A DNA stretch of 64,000 nucleotides, taken from Terriglobus tenax (lineage in GTDB: Bacteria > Acidobacteriota > Terriglobia > Terriglobales > Acidobacteriaceae). The DNA is taken from contig NZ_JAGSYA010000004.1 in the NCBI RefSeq assembly GCF_025685395.1, positions 2,666,001 through 2,730,000 on the forward strand. Reading direction: 5' to 3'. Below the pieces are notes generated by a model that was given only the letters and a program-made list of their open reading frames with translations, was not told the DNA's origin and did no database searches. This document shows, piece by piece, positions 36,599 through 63,470 of this stretch; position 1 is the stretch's first letter, and each line of letters begins with the position of its first letter. The position numbers were made by a program, and so were the translations under genes.

Positions 36599-36680
36599 AT
36601 CTTCCATTCTAGTCTTGATGACGGCTCTGCCCGCGGCTTGGTACGCTGATGGCTCAGTCAGGCGCACCTAAGGAGAAGCA

Positions 36681-37286
36681 ATGAAGACCAGGATCCTCGC
36701 GATTGCGATGGCCGCTGTGTGTAGTGCAACCATGTTCGGGCAGATGCCCGCTGCCGCGCCCTCCGGCCCGGTGGAACCGGCCAAGGCCGCCGACTTCCTC
36801 GTCTCCGGCGCGGAGAAGGACTTCATCAGCCTGCTGGAAGCCATGCCGGCCGACAAGTACAGCTTTGCCCCCTCGGCCAGCCTGTTCAAGGCCCCGGAGT
36901 CGGTCGACTTCAAAGGCGTGCGCACCTTCGCGCAACTGGTCACGCACACCGTGCAGGCCAACTACTTTTACTGGGCTCCGGTACTGGGCGAGAAACTCGA
37001 CCAGGAGAAGATCGCCGCCATCGGTAAACTCACCGACAAGGACGCCATCGTGAAGGCCGCCAAGGAGTCCATGGAGTACGGCCACAAGGCCGCCGCTTCC
37101 ATCACCGCCGCCAACGCCTTTGAGGGCGCGGGCCGTGGCGCTGCCTCCACCAAACTCATCTCGCTCGCCGGTGGCGTCATCCACATCCGCGACGAATATG
37201 GCCAGATGGTTGTCTGGGGCCGCATGGTCGGCGTCGTACCCCCCGCCAGCGCCGGACGTCCGGCTGCGAACCCCACCAACAAATAA
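36681..37286 (+). CDS. Exported DinB-like protein
   Basis: A 201-residue protein with a signal peptide (MKTRILAIAMAAVCSATMFGQ). The rest resembles the DinB/YfiT four-helix bundle: FISLLEAMPADKYSFAP, then TFAQLVTHTVQANYFYW and GGVIHIRDEYGQMVVWGRM near the end. The DinB fold normally binds a metal through three histidines; here H in VTHTV and H in VIHIRDEYGQ are visible, and a third is uncertain. Cytosolic DinB proteins are often thiol S-transferases, so an exported version is unusual; exported DinB-like proteins are, however, common in Acidobacteriota as I recall. An AGGAGAAG ribosome-binding site precedes the ATG. Confidence 0.75.
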   Translation: MKTRILAIAMAAVCSATMFGQMPAAAPSGPVEPAKAADFLVSGAEKDFISLLEAMPADKYSFAPSASLFKAPESVDFKGVRTFAQLVTHTVQANYFYWAPVLGEKLDQEKIAAIGKLTDKDAIVKAAKESMEYGHKAAASITAANAFEGAGRGAASTKLISLAGGVIHIRDEYGQMVVWGRMVGVVPPASAGRPAANPTNK

Positions 37287-37304
37287 AGAAGCGGCAGAAA
37301 GAGC

Positions 37305-37337
37305 AAAAGAGCACGGCGACTCAGCCGTGCTCTTTTT
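37305..37337 (+). terminator. Intrinsic terminator of the DinB-like gene
   Basis: GAGCACGGC (37309-37317) pairs with GCCGTGCTC (37324-37332) over 9 bp, followed by five T and preceded by AAAA. It lies about 20 nt after the stop. Confidence 0.9.
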
Positions 37338-37363
37338 GTGTTTCCAGGAGTCTTCGTTATCGA

Positions 37364-37405
37364 TGCACCCGGGGTGCACCCTCACGGAGTAAGGGTGGGT
37401 GAGGC
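37364..37405. repeat. Perfect 15-nt palindrome plus possible family 3 hairpin
   Basis: TGCACCC-G-GGGTGCA (37364-37378) is a perfect inverted repeat. The overlapping CACCCT (37377-37382) pairs with AGGGTG (37392-37397). Read on the minus strand, the second hairpin resembles the ACCCACCC...AGGGTG..CAC layout of family 3, but the match is weak. Confidence 0.4.
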
Positions 37406-59161: not shown

Positions 59162-59989
59162 TTACTTTACGCCAAAGATGCGCTGGAAGTTGGCCGTGGT
59201 GGCCTGTGCAAAGGCTTCAACGGTCATCCCACGAGCCGCTGCAATGGCCGCGGCGGTGTGCGCGGTATAGGCCGGTTCGTTGCGCTGGCCGCGGTGCGGA
59301 ATGGGCGCAAGGTAAGGTGCGTCGGTCTCCACCAGGATCTTGTCGAGCGGGGTGGCCGCAGCAATCGCCATCAGGTCTTTGGACTTGGGAAAGGTGGTGT
59401 GCCCCGCGAAGGAGAGCACAAAGTTGTTGGCCAGGCTGCGCCGGGCATGCTCTTCCGATCCGCTGAAGCAGTGCATGACGCCGGTCAGGCCGCTTGGGGT
59501 CCAGTGCTCTTCGATCACTTCGAAGAGATCGTTCCAGACGTCGAGGCCGGGAAAGTTGGGAGTACCGTCGTTCGGGCGGCAGTGGATCAGGATGGGCTTC
59601 TGTGCGTCGACGGCGATCCGTATCTGACGGAGAAAGCAGGACTTCTGGATCTCCGGAGAGGGGGATTCGGCGTGGTAGTAGTCCAGGCCGATCTCGCCGA
59701 CGGCGATGCAGTTCGGCTCCTGAATCAACGCTGCAAGCTGGGTGTACTCGGCTTCGGTGGCCTCATGCGCATTTCCCGGATAGATGCCTGCCGAGGCGTA
59801 AACCGCTGGTGTGGAAGCAGTTGCGGGCCGGGCGAGAGCCAGGGCGCGGGACATCTTCGAGGGCGGTTCGCCGATGCCGATGGTGAGGATCGTCTTGATT
59901 CCAGCGGAAAAAGCGCGCTCGAGGACGGCGTCGAAGTCGTCCTCAAAGCGCGGGTTGTCCAGGTGGCAGTGCGAGTCAACCAGATGCAT
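59162..59989 (-). CDS. tatD: TatD-family metal-dependent hydrolase
   Basis: A 275-residue TIM-barrel nuclease. Metal ligands are seen in LVDSHCHLDNPRFEDD, VGEIGLDYYH, LIHCRPNDG, MHCFSG and VETDAPYLAP. TatD proteins are 3'-5' deoxyribonucleases and D-aminoacyl-tRNA deacylase candidates. The gene lies directly after metG (1-nt overlap), the conserved metG-tatD arrangement found in many bacteria. Confidence 0.93.
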   Translation of the reverse strand: MHLVDSHCHLDNPRFEDDFDAVLERAFSAGIKTILTIGIGEPPSKMSRALALARPATASTPAVYASAGIYPGNAHEATEAEYTQLAALIQEPNCIAVGEIGLDYYHAESPSPEIQKSCFLRQIRIAVDAQKPILIHCRPNDGTPNFPGLDVWNDLFEVIEEHWTPSGLTGVMHCFSGSEEHARRSLANNFVLSFAGHTTFPKSKDLMAIAAATPLDKILVETDAPYLAPIPHRGQRNEPAYTAHTAAAIAAARGMTVEAFAQATTANFQRIFGVK

Positions 59990-62202
59990 TACTTCAGGCG
60001 TGCTCCGAGCGGTACATCTTCCAGAAAAGAAGCCAGATAGGGGTGGCCGTGGTCGCCAACGGAGGCGGCTACGATCATGCCGTTCGATTCGAGTCCGCGC
60101 ATCTTGCGGGGCGCTAAGTTGGCTACAATCACGACTTTGCGGCCTACCAGTGCTTCGGGCTCGTAGAATTCGGCGATGCCGGAGAGGATCTGGCGCTGTT
60201 CAAAGCCGAGATCGACCTGCAGTTTCAGCAACTTATCGGCCTTCGGGATGCGCTCGACGGAGAGTACTTTGGCGACGCGCAGGTCGAGCTTAGCGAAGTC
60301 GTCGATGGTGATGACCGGCGCGATCGGAGCGATTCCGGGGGAGACCTCGGCCGGAGTTTCGTCGATTCTGGTGTCGTTCGGTGCGCTTAAAACGGCATTT
60401 TCGGCGCTGTTTGGCGCGTTTTCGGCGGGCTTCTGTTCGGAGTCAGTCATGGTCTGGATCAGTTCCTTGGGTGCGCGGGGGAAGATGGGGCCAAGCGTGC
60501 CGAGCTTTGTGCCGGGCTTCAGGCCACCCCACTGCAGGTTAGTGAGTTCGCCTTTTTGGGCGGATTCTTCAATATTTCCGAGTCCGAGCTGCGCCCAGAC
60601 CTTGGCAGTGGTGTTGGGGAGATACGGGTAAAGCGCCGCCGTGATGTGGCGAATAGCTTCGGCGGCGTAGTAAAGCACTTCGGCCAAAAGAGACCGCTTG
60701 GTCTCATCGGCGGCCAGCTTCCAGGGAACGTTTGAGGTCAGGTAGCCGTCGGTGGAGGCGATCTCGCTCCAGATGGATTGGAGCTGGGTACCGAAGTCGT
60801 AGTTCGATGGCTCCGAACCCTCCCTAGCGTTACGAGGGAGAGGCACACCGGCCGGGGGAATTTCGCCGAAGTATTTTTCGATCATGGCGAGGGTGCGGCT
60901 GACGAGGTTGCCGTAGCCGTTGGCGAGGTCGGAGTTGTAGCGCTGGACCAGGGCGTCGAAGCTGAAGCTGCCGTCGTTGCCGAAAGGAATCTCGCGGAGG
61001 AGGAAGTAGCGGAGGACGTCGGTGCCGAAGAGGTCCTGTTCCTGCTTACTTGCTTCTGGCTTCAGAGAGCCGAAGGCGTCGAGGATGGATTCGGCGCGGA
61101 CGATGTTGCCGCGGGACTTGCTCATCTTGCTTTCTTCAAAGAGCAGCCAGCCGTGGGCCTGAACCTTTTTGGGCAGAGGCAGACCTGCTGCCAGAAGGAA
61201 GGCGGGCCAGTAGATGCAGTGAAAGCGGATGATCTCTTTGCCTACAAGGTGGAGGTCGGCGGGCCAGAATTTTTCGAAGAGATTCCCACCCACCCCGCTT
61301 TGCGGTGTGGATGGGGCACCCGGATTGGTGGCTGTGTCCTGACCGTAGCCGAGGGCGGTCATGTAGTTGGCGAGAGCGTCGAGCCAGACGTAGATGACGT
61401 GCTTCTGCTTCGAGAGCGAGGCTGCGGGTTCGGGGACGGGGATGCCCCAGTCGAAGCTGCTGCGGGAGATGGAGAGGTCCTTGAGTGCGCCGGGGAGGTA
61501 GGGGGTTCCTTGTGCCGAGTAGGCGAGATTCCCACCCACCCCGCTTTGCGGTGTGGATGGGGCACCCAGATTGGTGGCATCCGGATCAGTGGCCGCGTTG
61601 ACGTTGCCGCGGAGGAAGCTGAGGACTTCGTTGCGGCGGGCTTCTGGTTCTACTGCGAAGCGTCCGGACTCGATGAGGTCGATGAGCTGGAGCTGGTAGT
61701 TCGAGAGCTTGAAGAAGAAGTTCTCTTCGGTGACGAGCTCGAGCAGGCGGCCGCAATCGGGGCAGGGGGTCCCGACGGGCAGGTCCATGAAGGCCTCGTC
61801 GGAGACGCAGTAGCTGCCGGTGTAGCTGTTGAGCTCGATGTGTCCACCTTCGTAGAGGCGGTTGAAGAGGGCCTGGACGCCCTGGGCGTGGCGCGGCTCG
61901 GTGGTGCGGATGTAGTCGTTGTAGGTGATGCCCATGCGGTCCCACAGCGCGAGGAAGGTGGCGGAGACCTGGTCGGTGAACTGCTGGGGCGAGATGCCGG
62001 CGGCTTCTGCGGAGCGCTGGACTTTCTGGCCGTGCTCGTCGGTTCCGGTGAGGAAGTAGACGTTGTCATTGCCGAGCTGGAGGCGCTGGCGGCGCGCGAT
62101 AGTGTCAGCCGCGAGCGTGGTGTACGCGTGGCCGATGTGGGGGCGCGCGTTGACGTAGTAGATCGGCGTGGTGAGGTAGAAGGTCTTCTGCGGCTCGGAC
62201 AT
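59989..62202 (-). CDS. metG: Methionine-tRNA ligase with repeat-derived insertions
   Basis: A 737-residue class I synthetase that charges tRNA-Met. HIGH is intact at 22-25, the zinc CPDC is at 147-150, KMSKS is at 359-363, and a C-terminal tRNA-binding domain starts near 635 (IDDFAKLDLRVAKVLSVERI). Three stretches do not belong to the usual fold: residues 209-226 and 291-308, both reading ATN-x-GAPSTPQSGVGGNL, and about 452-464 (GVPLPRNAREGSE). They are encoded by palindromic repeat DNA that also occurs in intergenic regions. All keep the frame. Catalytic motifs are unaffected, so the enzyme should work. Confidence 0.95.
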   Translation of the reverse strand: MSEPQKTFYLTTPIYYVNARPHIGHAYTTLAADTIARRQRLQLGNDNVYFLTGTDEHGQKVQRSAEAAGISPQQFTDQVSATFLALWDRMGITYNDYIRTTEPRHAQGVQALFNRLYEGGHIELNSYTGSYCVSDEAFMDLPVGTPCPDCGRLLELVTEENFFFKLSNYQLQLIDLIESGRFAVEPEARRNEVLSFLRGNVNAATDPDATNLGAPSTPQSGVGGNLAYSAQGTPYLPGALKDLSISRSSFDWGIPVPEPAASLSKQKHVIYVWLDALANYMTALGYGQDTATNPGAPSTPQSGVGGNLFEKFWPADLHLVGKEIIRFHCIYWPAFLLAAGLPLPKKVQAHGWLLFEESKMSKSRGNIVRAESILDAFGSLKPEASKQEQDLFGTDVLRYFLLREIPFGNDGSFSFDALVQRYNSDLANGYGNLVSRTLAMIEKYFGEIPPAGVPLPRNAREGSEPSNYDFGTQLQSIWSEIASTDGYLTSNVPWKLAADETKRSLLAEVLYYAAEAIRHITAALYPYLPNTTAKVWAQLGLGNIEESAQKGELTNLQWGGLKPGTKLGTLGPIFPRAPKELIQTMTDSEQKPAENAPNSAENAVLSAPNDTRIDETPAEVSPGIAPIAPVITIDDFAKLDLRVAKVLSVERIPKADKLLKLQVDLGFEQRQILSGIAEFYEPEALVGRKVVIVANLAPRKMRGLESNGMIVAASVGDHGHPYLASFLEDVPLGARLK
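60812..60848. repeat. Family 3 palindrome inside metG, diverged copy
   Basis: GAACCCTCCCTAGCGTTACG followed by AGGGAGAGGCAC matches the intergenic copy at 63372 (GAACCCACCCTAGCGTTGCG, then GGGGTGGGGCAC). CCTCCCT can pair with AGGGAGAGG. It encodes about 12 residues near position 452-464 of MetG in frame. Confidence 0.75.
61281..61332. repeat. Family 3 palindrome inside metG, copy A
   Basis: A 52-nt element. Arms 61285-61298 and 61302-61315 pair at 12 of 14 positions around a TTT loop, followed by the conserved tail GGGGCACCCGGATTGGTGGC. It differs from copy B at one base and encodes MetG residues 291-307 in frame. Confidence 0.9.
61527..61578. repeat. Family 3 palindrome inside metG, copy B
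   Basis: A 52-nt element identical to copy A at 51 of 52 bases, in the same orientation and the same reading frame, 246 nt away. It encodes MetG residues 209-225. Confidence 0.9.
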
Positions 62203-62429
62203 GGTCGTATTTAAGGATAAATGGGGGGAGTTGTCCGTGCTCTGTTCTCAGGGGTACGCCGACCATCGAGGCCGGCGTTGGGTTGTTGTTTGGGAATGGG
62301 TTGCGGCACGGCTGAAGCCGTGCCCTGACGGGTTTGTTGGAGAAGCAGATCCTTGCAGGATGACAAGGGACAAGAAAGGCGATCGCGCGTTGCGCGAGGC
62401 CCAAATCCGGACATGGGCACCCGGGAGAG
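62203..62429. other. Intergenic region between metG and the TIGR03435 gene
   Basis: No gene is supported here. It holds the first 77-nt family 2 repeat (62256-62332) followed by GGATGACAAGGGACAAGAAAGG; the bases nearest 62203 are the metG leader on the minus strand (short, no clear promoter recognised). Confidence 0.6.
62256..62332. repeat. 77-nt two-hairpin repeat, family 2, copy 1
   Basis: Hairpin a ACGCCGACC-ATCGA-GGCCGGCGT (one mismatch) and hairpin b GGCACGGC-TGAA-GCCGTGCC are joined by a 27-nt spacer. It is 76/77 identical to copy 2 at 63230-63306 in the same orientation; the two flank the TIGR03435 gene. Confidence 0.92.
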
Positions 62430-63170: not shown

Positions 63171-63229
63171 GATGGGGATACTGTGCCACAGGGTTGGAGG
63201 TTTGGCATTGGGAAAATGCTGGAAAGGGG

Positions 63230-63306
63230 ACGCCGGCCATCGAGGCCGGCGTTGGGTTGTTGTTTGGGAATGGGTTGCGGCACGGCTGAAGCCGTGCCCT
63301 GACGGG
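63230..63306. repeat. 77-nt two-hairpin repeat, family 2, copy 2
   Basis: Hairpin a ACGCCGGCC-ATCGA-GGCCGGCGT is perfect (9 bp); hairpin b is GGCACGGC-TGAA-GCCGTGCC. It lies 60 nt upstream of the TIGR03435 start codon and matches copy 1 at all but one base. Confidence 0.92.
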
Positions 63307-63371
63307 GAATGACAAAGCAAGAATGGGGCAACCGACTTCTGCTGATAGGAATGGCATATGGGTGAGTGGCT

Positions 63372-63416
63372 TCGAACCCACCCTAGCGTTGCGGGGGTGG
63401 GGCACCCGGTTCCGTG
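63372..63416. repeat. Family 3 palindrome, intergenic copy C
   Basis: CGAACCCACCCTAGCGTTGC followed by GGGGGTGGGGCACCC and CGTGGC. CCCACCC pairs with GGGTGGG, and the GGGGCACCC tail is shared with the metG copies. It is the closest relative of the diverged metG copy at 60812. Confidence 0.8.
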
Positions 63417-63421
63417 GCCCT

Positions 63422-63470
63422 CAACCCACTCATCCGCTTCGCGTATGAATGGGGCACCCAGAGTGGTGGC
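63422..63470. repeat. Family 3 palindrome, intergenic copy D
   Basis: Arms CCCACTCATCCGC and GCGTATGAATGGG pair around TTC with the same two mismatch positions as the metG copies, while other pairs changed from C-G to T-A on both sides. The tail is GGGGCACCCAGAGTGGTGGC. It ends 11 nt before the kinase stop. Confidence 0.85.

Follow-up and report, generated by a model that had tools for sequence, protein, structure and literature searches.

The 64,000-nt window of the Terriglobus tenax genome analyzed here contains, at 59989–62202 on the minus strand, the gene metG for methionyl-tRNA synthetase (737 amino acids; Pfam tRNA-synt_1g, 5.7e-93, and tRNA_bind, 5e-30). The source genome (4.36 Mb, 98.4% complete, 4 contigs; G000 in our comparisons) shares this gene with nearly all others, metG homologs being present in 40 of the 41 genomes compared with our own counted. 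The gene hosts two copies of a palindromic element oriented along the + strand, opposite to the gene itself. Copy 1 lies at 61279–61332 (residues 291–308; model match 61286–61321) and copy 2 at 61525–61578 (residues 209–226; model match 61532–61567), both scoring 33.8 bits (E 1.3e-7) with the covariance model introduced below. The copies are 54 nt long and identical at 53 of the 54 positions, lie 246 nt apart from start to start in the same strand and frame, and each encodes a peptide of 18 codons, ATN(L/P)GAPSTPQSGVGGNL. The initial annotation had recognized this pair and its spacing as well as the peptide in both copies, but took the elements to be 52 nt long (51/52 identical) and quoted 14 codons. 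The diverged third copy that it placed near residues 452–464 is only probable: the stretch at 60808–60846 (+; residues 453–465) is 85% identical over 39 nt to 63367–63405 and looks like a decayed copy, but it was missed by the covariance model in a search of the window with E values up to 5. Its stem has CCCT...AGAGG in place of CCCA...TGGGG, that is, one compensated change (A–T to T–A) plus one mismatch, and it reads VPLPRNAREGSEP where another copy of the family reads VPHPRNARVGSEP. Copies 1 and 2 agree at 54 of 58 positions, compared with 40 of 58 for the best other among 68 copies compared, and one was therefore probably derived from the other.

The window holds further members of the family outside metG. 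The strongest, at 63374–63407 (+; 39.7 bits, E 2.6e-9), was negative in our coding screen (score −0.40; L047 at 399) and is adjoined by another at 63422–63459 (+; 37.0 bits, E 1.5e-8). A weak member at 37372–37402 (−; 17.8 bits, E 0.0044) is located between the ends of convergent reading frames (37286 and 37440) and overlaps another listed frame, 36654–37385 (−), at its first bases. The same region as metG also contains a different 81-nt repeat, at 62252–62332 and 63226–63306, with 98% identity between its copies and the palindromes ACGCCGGCCATCGAGGCCGGCGT and GGCACGGCTGAAGCCGTGCC.

The unit of the family is a hairpin of the form CCCA-stem-loop-stem-TGGGG followed by CACCC. The core TGGGGCACCC has 77 matches in the genome and the reversed pattern only 2, so that the repeats are not due to chance. 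With a covariance model built from 48 copies, we scored 150 candidates of the source genome, of which 94 matched at E ≤ 0.01; this is a lower bound on its model matches. The model was positive in all 12 genomes of Acidobacteriaceae tested, the other eleven having 3 to 146 matches (150 candidates were scored per genome, and counts near this number are lower bounds), and had no match in the 4 genomes tested from outside the family. Across 297 sampled genomes of the phylum, tallied by eye, the motif count was at least three times that of the control in 27 of the 31 Acidobacteriaceae genomes, with a maximum of 265 matches. Outside the family the counts were low and mostly near the control, the largest excesses seen being 55 versus 27 (G136) and 20 versus 2 (G211); high copy number was thus seen in one family only among these 297 genomes.

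The hairpin is kept by compensatory change while the inner stem varies between copies. Inner pairs 6, 7, 8, 10, and 11 were formed in 63, 65, 63, 52, and 57 of 68 copies, respectively, whereas with the arms swapped between copies the proportions were 0.58, 0.83, 0.45, 0.49, and 0.60. Pair 9 was less clear (48 of 68 paired, 0.60 with swapped arms), and pair 5 was a C·A mismatch in 36 of the 68. This count used 68 of the 77 motif matches (4 had been dropped earlier, and 5 lacked CCCA), at least one of which (L024) is ordinary coding sequence; the matches in L018 and L011 (2568), also ordinary coding sequence, had been dropped. The left arms were chosen for maximal pairing, which favors the true copies, but RNAalifold, whose count is free of that choice, found 15, 8, and 20 two-sided changes at three inner pairs among 48 copies. 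Because copies were picked by the exact core TGGGGCACCC, the core itself is invariant by construction.

In a screen of frame and codon usage, 11 of 64 hairpin copies lay inside coding sequence and in frame, distributed over nine genes: two each in metG and ligD and one each in glmS, tgt, rnr, nadB, hemH, dnaX, and a mutM/nei-like gene. Seven of the hosts (tgt, glmS, rnr, mutM-like, hemH, ligD, and nadB) were named by sequence matches to PDB entries and metG by Pfam; dnaX is what we take the ninth to be from its sequence. The remaining 53 copies failed the coding screen, in agreement with the earlier observation that the family also occurs between genes, and copies beyond the window were many, including nine in-gene copies in the eight genes other than metG. 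Antisense to the element, one frame (GAP...) is used twice in metG and in glmS, rnr, ligD, and dnaX, and another (VPH...) in ligD and hemH; the sense frames are PTH...GAPS in tgt and the mutM-like gene and SHPF...WGTQ in nadB. The element is thus read in four ways, two frames per orientation, which argues that it is the DNA and not the peptide that has spread and been conserved. The linker of dnaX (L015:907-3009, −) contains at least three repeat-like stretches, SSRPERSGVEG, EPGAPYLAKADVGEP, and VILSDSEGPP, the second of which belongs to the hairpin family.

Comparison with relatives reveals empty sites. In an alignment of MetG from 68 of 110 loci, with four species represented twice (L053/L081, L054/L087, L066/L091, and L067/L108), the residues of copy 1 were missing from all 67 other rows, duplicates included; a native MetG loop at this site is thereby ruled out, and no distant MetG among these rows encoded the same peptide with diverged DNA. 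The net gain at copy 1 is 15 codons over the four nearest relatives and 12 over three others, less than the length of the element, which implies replacement or loss of a few host codons there. Copy 2 is also missing in the four nearest relatives, and its net gain over relatives is 17 or 19 codons, 17 in the case of these four. Other Acidobacteriaceae (L066/L091, L083, L084, and L088) have other repeat-like stretches in the copy 2 loop, after RNEVLSFLRGN: GTCATCCTGAGCGAAGCGAAGGATC, reading VILSEAKDL, and GTCATCTCGACCGAAGCGCAGCGCAGTGGAGAGATCC, reading VISTEAQRSGEIP. We take both to be common repeats; three exact 19-nt motifs had no match in the loci of the source genome or in the window.

Judged by alignment, tgt is the cleanest empty site. 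The insert amounts to a net 17 codons (51 nt) between VPW and LEGKHQALFG, where the three nearest species carry VPWHNELD, and was found in none of the 19 aligned relatives, 13 of the same genus and 6 of the same order (the 22 searched also included G010, without a match, and G025 and G030, which were left out of the alignment). No target-site duplication is evident at tgt, the relatives being too diverged to exclude a short one, and at the family insertions in general we recognized neither a target-site duplication nor a target motif; as regards a comparison with MITEs, the unit is a single hairpin. The gain in glmS is six codons over the two nearest relatives, less than one element, in a loop that has unrelated insertions in other species. 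At the element, HemH exceeds its PDB match by eight residues, and nadB showed no net gain relative to PDB entry 1chu, presumably the Escherichia coli protein. In rnr, the segment in the three nearest relatives is only four codons shorter, and the insertion may thus be old, while the N terminus of the mutM-like protein aligned too poorly for an empty-site comparison. The source genome also has a second full-length GlmS-like gene (G000:C3:496662-498536), 78% identical to the element-bearing glmS.

A search for the transposase domain PF01797 (Y1_Tnp) found it in 78 of 90 genomes of the bacterial family but not, at E ≤ 0.001, in the source genome. Among 24 Y1_Tnp loci, four from the Pfam search and twenty hand-picked from its list (21 distinct places, three pairs being the same place), L265 was the sole one with the Y1 gene bracketed by inverted family hairpins, which there have an A–T to G–C change in the stem. 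In three others (L261, L270, and L274), a model match at E < 0.01 was one-sided or more distant, and the low yield counts against such an enzyme as the mover. The L265 protein matches NF047646, REP-associated tyrosine transposase (RAYT), with 107.2 bits (cut-off 80), and the other RAYTs described here were identified as its homologs. Only with this protein as the query did the link become clear: homologs at E ≤ 1e-20 were found in 128 of 200 genomes of the family, none of them in the source genome. We inspected 30 RAYT loci, one best match per genome from 30 genomes, the seed (L305 = L265) included. Inverted hairpins bracketed 13 of these, 7 had a one-sided or other arrangement, and 10 had no family hairpin nearby, the last group again counting against a RAYT mover. 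Elsewhere in the same 30 loci we found 8 hairpins in 60,830 nt, and under a uniform model with 700-nt windows, the chance of at least 20 of the 30 loci having any hairpin is about 1e-14. A second set of 19 loci was reduced to 14 further distinct ones by dropping four repeats of the first set (L336, L342, L351, and L352) and a distant one (L257, 28%); 9 were bracketed, 4 were one-sided, and 1 had none. This set was hand-picked, and the same-genus genome G002 was taken because motifs had already been seen on both sides; it is among the bracketed cases together with G009, G008, and G007 of the same genus. The flank scan demands CCC and GGGGCAC, equally in the control stretches, and contig ends truncate some loci. 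The stem sequences vary among loci, while the CCC...GGGGCAC frame, demanded by the scan, stays. In G009 (C57:77196-79559), a RAYT gene directly adjoins glmS, one of the element-bearing genes of the source genome. A rule by which more Y1 transposases give more copies is ruled out by a negative rank relation between Y1_Tnp and motif counts in 13 genomes (rho −0.67, P = 0.012).

The reading that we favor, with a probability of roughly 0.86, is that the elements are REP-type hairpins moved by a RAYT, some of which have been kept in frame in permissive loops of proteins in a genome where no RAYT is now detected. The family would consist of nonautonomous DNA units that form the hairpin as single strand, with the conserved foot 5′-GGGTGCCCC...GGG-3′ as read from the tail, and the mover would be a REP-associated tyrosine (HUH, Y1) transposase. 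Copies would have spread through the genome of a Terriglobus-like ancestor, in part into genes, where those that kept the frame in permissive loops would have survived. The survivors would now encode short loops, tolerated rather than useful, in MetG, GlmS, Tgt, RNase R, LigD, HemH, NadB, the MutM-like glycosylase, and DnaX. The RAYT would then have been lost, or may lie within the missing 1.6% of the assembly, leaving the copies as orphans.

The strongest competitor, which we nevertheless consider improbable, is a spread without transposase, by template switching or gene conversion between hairpins in replication, with the RAYT genes as passengers in hairpin-rich regions. It would fit the two metG copies being closest to each other at a distance of 246 nt, the negative ranking of Y1_Tnp and motif counts, and the lack of detected Y1_Tnp both in the source genome and in G076, a genome with 180 motif matches. 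Against it, RAYT ends are bracketed by inverted hairpins in one orientation in 13/30 and 9/14 loci, far above the density of hairpins elsewhere, and this is the published REPtron arrangement and not expected if the RAYT genes were passengers.

The source genome differs from RAYT-bearing relatives in the share of in-gene copies: the 11 of 64 compare with 0 of 55 in G002 and 0 of 22 in G009 (0/77 together; Fisher P = 1e-4), although the samples are not random. That of G002 consists of 70 loci in the first 1.56 Mb with the RAYT pair left out, of which 55 hairpins passed, and that of G009 of 20 of the best model scores, with 22 hairpins. Although its coding score was trained on source-genome genes, the screen recognized 1,598 of 1,600 points in eight orthologs of these two relatives and 1,596 of 1,600 when the four test gene families were left out of training. 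Same-genus genomes with no RAYT match had 94 (own), 41 (G006), 4 (G003), and 4 (G014) model matches. Loss of the RAYT, a smaller genome, or a past burst may explain the contrast. A rather unlikely variant is that after RAYT loss the lineage kept amplifying hairpins by a transposase-independent route that also copied them into genes. If true, the twin metG copies and the 11/64 versus 0/77 contrast would be the signature of such amplification, which would continue to supply essential enzymes with new in-frame peptides. Many of the G002 hairpins (L161-L190) follow another small hairpin, for example TCGAGCTTCGCTCGA; several occur in opposite-strand pairs 124–261 nt apart, in a REPIN-like layout.

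The AlphaFold model of MetG, computed with 28 sequences, had a mean pLDDT of 84.8 and a core that matched MetRS structures in a fold search. Four segments fell below a pLDDT of 50: residues 211–222, 290–305, and 458–465, which are the three copies, and the linker at 598–627. Because the low confidence falls on the copies and the core matches MetRS, the inserts are probably flexible loops outside the folded core. The prediction agrees with the placement of the peptides in loops by the initial annotation, and its proposal that a mobile palindrome entered an essential gene without breaking it gains support from these predicted loops together with the empty sites and the genomic copies. That the inserted peptides or mRNA hairpins were retained as helpful and not merely harmless would be in keeping with the higher share of in-gene copies in the source genome, but we find it very improbable given unrelated host enzymes, four different readings of the element, and predicted disorder of the MetG loops. 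Least credible of all is that the segments are native, fast-evolving linkers resembling the repeat by chance: the metG copy 2 loop and the glmS loop do vary in length and sequence in many relatives and nadB lacks a net gain, but a genomic repeat read in four ways is conserved as DNA and not as peptide, and the segment in tgt has no counterpart in relatives.

Rickettsia offers the best-known cases of in-frame palindromes within core genes, and the initial annotation had noted a likeness to the palindromic elements (RPEs) found there. RPEs are inserted in frame in genes likely encoding functional proteins (PMC3733652), and the copies of our family likewise lie in frame in presumably functional genes. 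The likeness holds for behavior but not for membership, because the family belongs with the RAYT-associated REP sequences. According to PMC3733652, RPE-4 and RPE-6 are CGTC-tagged repeats not associated with transposase genes, whereas our family is tied to RAYT and showed, by eye, no recurrent CGTC at either end in 73 copies; for lack of this tag, we rejected RPE membership. Like the RAYT-associated REPs and REPtrons as described in PMC3733652 and PMC6006769, the elements are short imperfect hairpins in high copy number with conserved foot bases; inverted copies bracket a Y1 tyrosine transposase (in relatives, the source genome having no detected RAYT); and some copies lie inside genes, tRNA synthetases being among the hosts in PMC3733652 as well. 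They differ from the GTAG REPs described there in having the foot GGGTGC (GGGGCACCC on the other strand) and not GT[AG]G. On the tail strand, GGGTGC precedes the hairpin, its invariance being by construction as the core was used for picking; on the other strand, no recurrent GTAG was found in 73 copies, although two G047 copies have GTAG three bases before CCC. The GGGTGC foot and the lack of a recurrent GTAG rule out membership in the canonical GTAG REPs. Unlike these REPs, the family has many in-frame copies in a genome with no detectable RAYT, and its high copy number was seen in only one acidobacterial family in our sample. Intragenic REPs of the GTAG and CGTC families, several in genes for DNA replication and repair or tRNA-related functions, have been described from other organisms and phyla (PMC3733652), and those inside tnpA_REP genes sit in a peripheral extension (PMC6006769); these belong to other REP families, and no acidobacterial host was seen in the sections consulted.

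Full-text searches of open-licence literature, judged by title or abstract, found neither in-frame palindromes nor this hairpin family in Acidobacteriota, in line with the initial annotation, which knew of no earlier description. The family appears to be a new RAYT-associated REP family, with the foot GGGTGC instead of GTAG and with the behavior, but not the identity, of an RPE. The RPE-like behavior is thus seen in a soil bacterium whose repeat, in congeneric sister species, can be linked to a transposase, and this makes the entry and survival of repeats in core genes testable. Odd peptides of acidobacterial enzymes (GAPS..., VPHP..., PTHP...) are also explained by the family and should not be taken for functional motifs. 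Part of it may already be in print as acidobacterial TIRs: PMC3733652 describes TIRYTs/TIRtrons, Y1 transposase genes with flanking inverted repeats, from T. saanensis, G. mallensis, K. versatilis, and A. capsulatum, with the shared motif GGGGWSAS. This resembles the GGGGCAC of our family, with GGGGCACC giving no exact fit, in a comparison made by the published motif alone. Two of the Y1_Tnp loci of the bacterial family (L255 and L258) have different, TIRtron-like inverted repeats of 47 nt.
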